DNA of 37,841 nucleotides from Candidatus Zixiibacteriota bacterium (GTDB lineage: Bacteria; Zixibacteria; MSB-5A5; GN15; FEB-12), in contig JAJRSF010000006.1 in the NCBI GenBank assembly GCA_024278935.1, positions 1-37,841 of the forward strand, in the 5' to 3' direction. The notes beneath the pieces were generated by a model. The model was not told where the DNA came from, searched no databases, and saw only the letters and a program-made list of their open reading frames with translations. The first letter of the stretch is position 1, and every line of letters starts with the position of its first letter. Made by a program: the position numbers and the translations under genes. This document shows, piece by piece, positions 14,915-15,704 of this stretch.

Positions 14915-15304
14915 ATGCAAAAAGAAATCACATACGTAAAAAATTCATCAAAATCATTTGATGATACAATTGCTACTCTTGAAAAAAATGTCGCCGATAA
15001 TATGTTTCGAGTGCTGCACACCCACGATGTTACCGCTACACTAGCTGAAAAAGAATTCACAATCAATCCACTAAAAATCATGGAGGTCTGCAACGCCGGT
15101 TTTGCCTACAAAGCATTAGGGTTAGACCAATCTGTCGCATTATTTATGCCTTGTAAATATGTCGTTGCTGAAAATGATGGAACTGTTTCGGTCACACTCT
15201 TTTTACCATCGGTTATTGCTGATTTTATTCAAAACGATGAGTTGAAAACTATGGCTGATGAAGTTGAAGTGAAACTGAAACATATTTTGGATATTTCTAT
15301 ATAA
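14915..15304 (+). CDS. DUF302 domain protein
   Basis: A 129-residue protein covering a DUF302 domain: FRVLHTHDVTATLAEK and PLKIMEVCNAGFAYKAL, then VALFMPCKYVV. Cysteines C59 and C80 sit at the positions usual for the family. The family binds or handles small thiols/metals in some proposals but has no established activity. The ATG at 14915 has an AAGGA Shine-Dalgarno about 8 nt upstream; the longer TTG frame from 14867 does not. It is followed after 4 nt by the UGA-containing small ORF. Confidence 0.88.
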   Translation: MQKEITYVKNSSKSFDDTIATLEKNVADNMFRVLHTHDVTATLAEKEFTINPLKIMEVCNAGFAYKALGLDQSVALFMPCKYVVAENDGTVSVTLFLPSVIADFIQNDELKTMADEVEVKLKHILDISI

Positions 15305-15308
15305 ATAA

Positions 15309-15494
15309 ATGAATCAGATAACTCGTACATTAATTTTTGTTGCTATCGGTATGGCACTCGGATTTGGATATTATTCTATTGTCTGTGCCATGGGTTCGAC
15401 CTGACAACTTACATCGAATCCGTACCCGATGCTTGGGTTTGGAGCTGTTGCCGGTCTGGTAATGTCGTTTGATAAAAAAGAAAAGAAGAAATAA
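15309..15494 (+). CDS. Candidate selenoprotein: two-helix membrane protein (DUF6132-like) with in-frame UGA
   Basis: The frame reads MNQITRTLIFVAIGMALGFG..., a first membrane helix (about 7-26), then VCAMGST-UGA-QLTSNPYPM, a second helix (LGFGAVAGLVMSF, about 41-54) and KKEKKK with a TAA at 15492-15494. UGA is codon 32 (15402-15404). In the small DUF6132-type proteins I recall, this loop carries a cysteine pair followed by TSNPY, so UGA stands where cysteine is expected, six residues after C26. The frame stays open and motif-bearing past UGA and ends 3 nt before the fmdB ATG. A SECIS-like hairpin follows the UGA. No clear Shine-Dalgarno is seen; the gene starts 4 nt after the DUF302 stop. A nonsense mutation or read error remains possible. 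Confidence 0.6.
15420..15442 (+). promoter_or_regulatory. SECIS-like hairpin downstream of the in-frame UGA
   Basis: CCGTACCC (15420-15427) pairs with GGGTTTGG (15435-15442): seven pairs (one G-U) and one U-U mismatch, closing a 7-nt loop GATGCTT. The loop begins 23 nt after the UGA and its first base is G. This fits the published bacterial SECIS pattern of a short apical loop with G at position 1 or 2, lying about 16-37 nt from the UGA. A competing small stem CATCG/CGATG (15412-15431) also exists. Confidence 0.45.
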
Positions 15495-15497
15495 GCG

Positions 15498-15704
15498 ATG
15501 CCAATATTTGAATACAAATGCACCGAGTGTGATAAAAAATTTGAGGAACTTGTTTTTGGTTCCGACACTATTGTCACTTGCCCTGATTGTAAATCTGAAA
15601 AGATAGAAAAATTGTTATCATCTTTTGCAGCATCGGTAAAAAGTTCCGGCTCGGCACCATGTGGTGCGTCGCCAAAGAGTTGTGGCTCTGCAGGTTTTGG
15701 TTGA
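15498..15704 (+). CDS. FmdB family zinc ribbon protein
   Basis: A 68-residue protein with the standard FmdB/CxxC_CxxC_SSSS start MPIFEYKC. Four zinc ligands C8, C11, C28 and C31 are followed by a flexible Ser/Gly/Cys-rich tail ending CGSAGFG. Such proteins are putative regulators or metal-binding adaptors. It begins 3 nt after the stop of the UGA-containing ORF, so the two are almost certainly cotranscribed. A terminator follows at 15761-15790. Confidence 0.92.
   Translation: MPIFEYKCTECDKKFEELVFGSDTIVTCPDCKSEKIEKLLSSFAASVKSSGSAPCGASPKSCGSAGFG

Follow-up and report, generated by a model that had tools for sequence, protein, structure and literature searches.

A conserved in-frame UGA points to a DUF6132-related family of small membrane selenoproteins in Candidatus Zixiibacteriota

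Comparative analysis of a contig from a Candidatus Zixiibacteriota bacterium (assembly GCA_024278935.1, contig JAJRSF010000006.1) indicates that it very probably encodes a 61-residue membrane selenoprotein, in which the UGA at codon 32 is decoded as selenocysteine (Sec). The gene lies at 15309-15494 on the forward strand of the 37,841-nucleotide stretch that was analyzed (hereafter referred to as the window, with all positions given relative to its first letter). It consists of a 62-codon frame that opens with an ATG at 15309, closes with a TAA at 15492-15494 and contains a single in-frame TGA, codon 32 (15402-15404, forward strand); its translation is MNQITRTLIFVAIGMALGFGYYSIVCAMGST-U-QLTSNPYPMLGFGAVAGLVMSFDKKEKKK. 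The frame is tightly packed between its neighbors, as it is separated by 4 nt from a DUF302 gene upstream (PF03625; 14915-15304, forward strand, in an ORF that is open from 14867 and whose stop ends at 15304) and by 3 nt from an fmdB-type zinc-ribbon gene downstream (PF09723; 15498-15704, forward strand, with its ATG at 15498). An OsmC-like gene (PF02566; 14423-14839, forward strand) marks the start of the cluster. An earlier, sequence-only reading of the window had proposed these frame coordinates, the placement of the UGA between two hydrophobic helices, and OsmC, DUF302 and FmdB as the neighboring genes; the first two were confirmed from the sequence and the last by the Pfam matches. Its central proposal, a small membrane selenoprotein, is supported by the sel genes of the genome, by conservation of the UGA and by the existence of homologues with Cys. 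In the mechanism that we favor, SelB and tRNA-Sec would decode the codon-32 UGA as Sec, guided by RNA hairpins located downstream.

Comparison of homologous genes shows the UGA to be a translated codon, positioned at a Cys/Sec site within a conserved gene cluster. When the window protein was used as a query against 79 genomes of the order, with stops read through, matches were obtained in 38 genomes, and 37 of these 38 contained exactly one in-frame TGA within the gene (a few matches show a second stop, TAA or TAG, at the natural gene end). The position of the TGA codon is constant in the extracted genes, typically within the sequence GST-TGA-x-[LIVM]-x-[CSAV]-[NS]-P. A search of the order with the PF19628 (DUF6132) profile (0/80) found none of the Sec genes, because this profile misses them, and the window protein, followed by a family profile (A1), was needed to recover the family. 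At the level of the phylum, which defines the scope of the survey, A1 was searched against 132 genomes and matched in 69, of which 56 have the TGA and 13 are stop-free, a count that sets aside one short, weak second match (G048). In 56 of the 132 genomes, the gene thus contains a single TGA, without exception at the aligned codon; these genomes are distributed over four taxonomic families (f1, 42 genomes; f4, 11; f5, 2; f15, 1), and the TGA is present in 42/42 of the f1 genes. The stop-free forms occur in families f5, f6, f9, f10, f15 and f16, and those that were read have Cys at the TGA codon, as the sequence-only reading had anticipated in suggesting that homologues should hold Cys or Sec at this site. 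Overall, the recurrence of TGA at the aligned codon is beyond chance, and in these alignments the distribution of Cys and Sec is the classic pattern of a selenoprotein family.

Two taxonomic families hold Sec and Cys forms side by side with similar flanking residues. In f15, GSQ-U-MLMCQP (G111) contrasts with GSQ-C-MIICQT (G112), and the corresponding sequence in f16 is GSQ-C-MILCNQ; in f5, GCRTGGT-U-MLTSSP (G083) and GCHST-U-GITSSP (G082) contrast with GCNNGA-C-AIASSP (G080). These pairs indicate that the residue has been switched more than once, and the Sec forms outside f1 and f4 (loci L128 and L129, from G083 and G082 respectively, and L120, from G111) look to be of separate origin, with the qualification that the G111 assembly has 9% contamination, such that its gene could be foreign. 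A contig search returned one record, Candidatus Zixiibacteriota JAJRQO010000023.1, which has the 75% match of G049 and probably represents that genome, and scans of IMG/VR found no viral relatives.

The genome that carries the window has the machinery to insert Sec, with the caveat that its selA contains an in-frame TGA (described below). Its assembly (3.4 Mb, 95% complete) contains all four of the genes, selA, selB, selC and selD, that the earlier reading had named as the ones to look for: the tRNA-Sec scores 64.5 bits against a gathering score of 47 and is called SeC with anticodon tca by ARAGORN, while selB, selA and selD score 314, 505 and 372 bits, respectively. SelD in this genome has a TGA of its own at the canonical Sec site (SCAG-U-ASKL). 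Because selA was found in nearly all of the genomes searched, including those that carry the Cys form, co-occurrence of the Sec form with selA is uninformative. As a side observation, several genomes contain two selD genes (loci L143-L152 compared with L153-L172); the first, whose Sec site is a TGA, occupies a frame of ~350-410 aa, and the second, which is stop-free and resembles a fusion protein, occupies a frame of ~740 aa.

Two hairpins are located downstream of the UGA in the window. The proximal hairpin, H1 (15419-15443, forward strand), is the SECIS-like element that was named in the earlier reading, and is formed by CCGTACCC and GGGTTTGG, which pair around GATGCTT. It is present in the minimum-energy fold of the UGA and the following 51 nt (-14.2 kcal/mol). 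The published model of the bacterial SECIS (bSECISearch) describes a stem-loop whose apical loop is located 16-37 nt after the UGA and has a G in its first two positions, and H1 in the window has a spacing within this range and, with the 7-nt loop given in the earlier reading, obeys the G rule. The hairpin described there does exist. As an identification of the signal it holds less well, as the hairpin taken alone is at chance level (z -0.65, with 56 of 200 shuffles equal or better) and the hairpin is weak in the nearest relatives, where three members of the same genus have fold energies of -4.7 to -7.8 kcal/mol compared to -11.4 kcal/mol in the window. Among the homologues more widely, the register and loop of H1 vary and its column covariation is weak. 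RNA structure downstream of the UGA is stronger in the Sec forms than in synonymous-codon nulls, and the Cys forms show no consistent signal of this kind, which favors decoding as Sec.

Covariation is concentrated in the distal hairpin, H2 (15447-15463, forward strand, +45 to +61 relative to the UGA), which in the window reads GTTGCC-GGTCT-GGTAAT (GUUGCC-GGUCU-GGUAAU as RNA) with its loop at 15453-15457. In the alignment, 86% of H2 cells are paired as compared to 80% after shuffling, 29 cells are changed on both sides as compared to 7.6 in the shuffles (5 of the 7 pairs are affected), and the covariation is 0.374 as compared to 0.260, a score that was reached by 0/500 shuffles. Sliding the alignment by 1-3 columns destroys the signal. 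The commonest form of the hairpin is GUGACC-GGUGC-GGUCAU, the f4 genes often have AUAGCC-GGUGC-GGCUAU, and the hairpin is intact in 4/4 members of the window's genus. Cys-form homologues show no excess structure at the H2 stretch. About one in four f1 genes has a weak H2, and in some f1 genera the hairpin is weak or lost while the TGA is kept (L034, L038, L040, L044, L052, L053, L055, L056 and L101). A proximal hairpin with a GG/GU loop was considered as a replacement where H2 is weak, and was rejected as the two show no association (Fisher p 0.71). On the basis of covariation, H2 is the best-supported conserved RNA element of the family and a candidate for the SelB-binding part of the SECIS.

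Since H1 is poorly kept in the nearest relatives and H2 covaries, H1 probably does not constitute the SECIS, or at least not all of it. The architecture resembles a standard SECIS, as defined by bSECISearch, in having a stem-loop after the UGA with a G-rich start of the apical loop, and H2 obeys the rule for G in the first two loop positions. It differs in that 48 nt separate the UGA from the loop of the covarying hairpin in f1 and f4, a distance outside the 16-37 nt range, with another structured stretch in between. The consensus hairpin found in SelD of this group places its GUU loop 20 nt from the UGA, and the f5 Sec forms have GGU and GUG loops 17 nt after theirs, at standard spacing. We tentatively suggest, with somewhat less than even confidence, that the f1 and f4 genes use a composite SECIS, in which a SelB-type hairpin with a GGU or GGG loop is positioned ~48 nt after the UGA and the intervening hairpin, H1, folds out the spacer; this would leave H2 at a near-canonical distance of roughly 14 plus 3 unpaired nt. 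A signal that departs from the published spacing rule in this way may explain why genes of this kind have been missed by SECIS-based searches.

A selenoprotein whose SECIS is the single proximal hairpin, with H2 an unrelated conserved RNA element that serves, for example, translation of fmdB, has a chance that we place a little short of even. The H1 spacing within the published range agrees with this arrangement, as does the strength of the proximal region when it is compared to GC-matched synonymous recodings: the stretch from +15 to +45 has a mean z of -2.0 in the 42 f1 genes and -1.7 in the 11 f4 genes (means over related sequences, which are not independent samples). However, the proximal fold weakens in the window's own genus where H2 stays intact, no constant GG/GU motif was found in the proximal loops of the homologues, and column covariation is weak for H1 and strong for H2.

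It is far less probable that the UGA is a true stop, such that the gene encodes a 31-residue protein and the codons that follow belong to a separate or relic frame, or are reached by occasional read-through. In 6 of 37 family genes TGA is the terminal stop, so UGA also serves as a normal stop in these genomes, which lends this explanation some credit. In contrast, Cys homologues continue through the site as one protein, the TGA forms, and not the Cys forms, show the RNA structure, and these organisms have a full Sec system. The codons themselves also argue for continued translation. In pairwise comparisons, dN/dS is low for the codons that precede the UGA as well as for those that follow it, where it is well below 1 (for the window and its nearest relative, G049, dN is 0.09 and dS is 0.79 over the codons after the UGA), and, as judged by these rates, purifying selection acts on the codons after the TGA in a manner that resembles its action on those before.

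Two further explanations for decoding as Sec being only apparent are very improbable. The first is that the TGA arose by nonsense mutation, or by an error of sequencing, in one genome's copy of a Cys-containing DUF6132-like gene. There is a precedent in the same assembly, as its selA gene (C64:9741-11075) contains an in-frame TGA, in the sequence VFAI-TGA-EKLL, at a codon that specifies Leu in the three relatives compared; no internal stop was seen in the other selA genes listed in the order, and the selA TGA looks like a base error in the assembly or a genuine recent lesion of the Sec pathway. Unlike that codon, the TGA of the membrane protein is conserved across genera, which refutes the explanation: 56 genomes share it at one codon position, it is lacking from 0/42 of the f1 genes, and its presence in 55 other genomes makes a base error at 15402-15404 irrelevant. 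The second is that a suppressor tRNA or an altered code assigns UGA to some amino acid besides Sec. No evidence in its favor was seen, and it conflicts with the termination of some of these genes by UGA, with Cys as the homologous residue and with the presence of tRNA-Sec and selB.

The gene has a stable genomic setting. The fmdB gene is located just downstream in all of the Sec and Cys loci that were tested, nearly all Sec forms of f1 and f4 have OsmC at a distance of ~0.6-1.4 kb on the upstream side, and DUF302 is directly upstream in 45 Sec-form loci (most of them), as well as in 4/4 f16 Cys loci. As judged by gene order, OsmC - DUF302 - Sec protein - FmdB is a conserved cluster.

The sequence-only reading had likened the protein to the DUF6132 type, whose members were said to have a cysteine pair followed by TSNPY. 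The motif is correct, as Cys homologues that score above the PF19628 cut-off (GCRSGYC-PITSNPY and similar; GCRSGYCPITSNPY) have C at the TGA column. The likeness itself holds in its general features, two helices and a Cys (Sec) loop followed by [TS]NP, but not by score: with Cys substituted for the UGA, the window protein reaches 15.8 bits (E 0.011) against PF19628 and a protein from the same genus reaches 20.6 bits, both below the cut-off of 23.2. The resemblance to DUF6132 includes the two helices, a loop Cys at the Sec column and the ensuing [IL][TSM][SC]NP, and Cys homologues that exceed the cut-off are found within the same class, where they too are encoded just before fmdB. The two differ in that Sec takes the place of the second Cys in the window family, and the first Cys is usually missing from Sec forms. 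On these scores the protein is better described as a relative of DUF6132 that contains Sec than as a member.

Like known prokaryotic selenoproteins, the window protein has Sec where homologues have Cys, is small and of redox type, and is encoded in a genome with Sec machinery. A 2026 table of prokaryotic selenoproteins comprises 119 families and subfamilies, and neither DUF6132/PF19628 nor a membrane protein with the GST-U-xxx[CS]NP motif is among them (PMC13188914). No NCBIfam model matched above its cut-off, a search of open literature found no relevant paper naming DUF6132 (its sole text hit looks like an unrelated plant paper), and the one paper found to mention Zixibacteria together with selenocysteine does not appear to describe the window protein. 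Going by the 119-family table and NCBIfam, it would represent a new selenoprotein family, although a prior mention is possible, and the layout of its SECIS is possibly new as well. The family is widespread in genomes of the Candidatus Zixiibacteriota type, and ordinary annotation would truncate such genes or drop them. Among known selenoproteins, Sec forms of the OsmC-like and FmdB families exist elsewhere, and the YeeE/YedE thiosulfate transporters (PF04143) have a GUxSG motif (PMC13188914). YeeE/YedE resembles the window protein in being a membrane protein with Sec adjacent to Gly, and differs in belonging to another Pfam family, to which the window protein has no sequence match. YeeE/YedE is also a far larger transporter.

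To consider what the protein may do, we modeled it with AlphaFold. The model contains helices at residues 3-27 and 39-57 (mean pLDDT 70, pTM 0.36), and a fold search of the PDB with it returned no meaningful match (best E 6). The C-terminal tail contains five lysines and the Sec loop has none; this lysine-rich C-terminus and the uncharged loop suggest a topology in which the two helices cross the membrane, the termini both lie in the cytoplasm and the Sec loop faces outward. The selenol could act as a thiol-redox or persulfide-reactive center at the membrane surface, working with the thiol proteins encoded in the cluster, and we give roughly one chance in three to any specific chemistry of this kind. 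OsmC belongs to a thiol peroxidase-type family, and its constant company leads us to guess that the chemistry at the membrane involves peroxides, thiols or persulfides. The presence of Sec in a small membrane protein encoded beside OsmC, DUF302 and FmdB offers a clue to what DUF6132-like proteins do.

The consensus of the Sec loop is [C]xxGST-U-x-L-[TM]-[SC]-N-P-Y, and no reactive residue other than Sec is conserved in the family alignment. A second Cys is not constant, as the sequence is CAMGSTU within the genus of the window, STUQIMC in the majority of the others and GGTUPVMVN in some, and a mixed selenosulfide would therefore probably be formed with a partner protein or a small thiol. A possible resolving Cys precedes Sec by 6 residues in the window's genus, follows it by 4 residues in most other genera, and is absent from genus g11.
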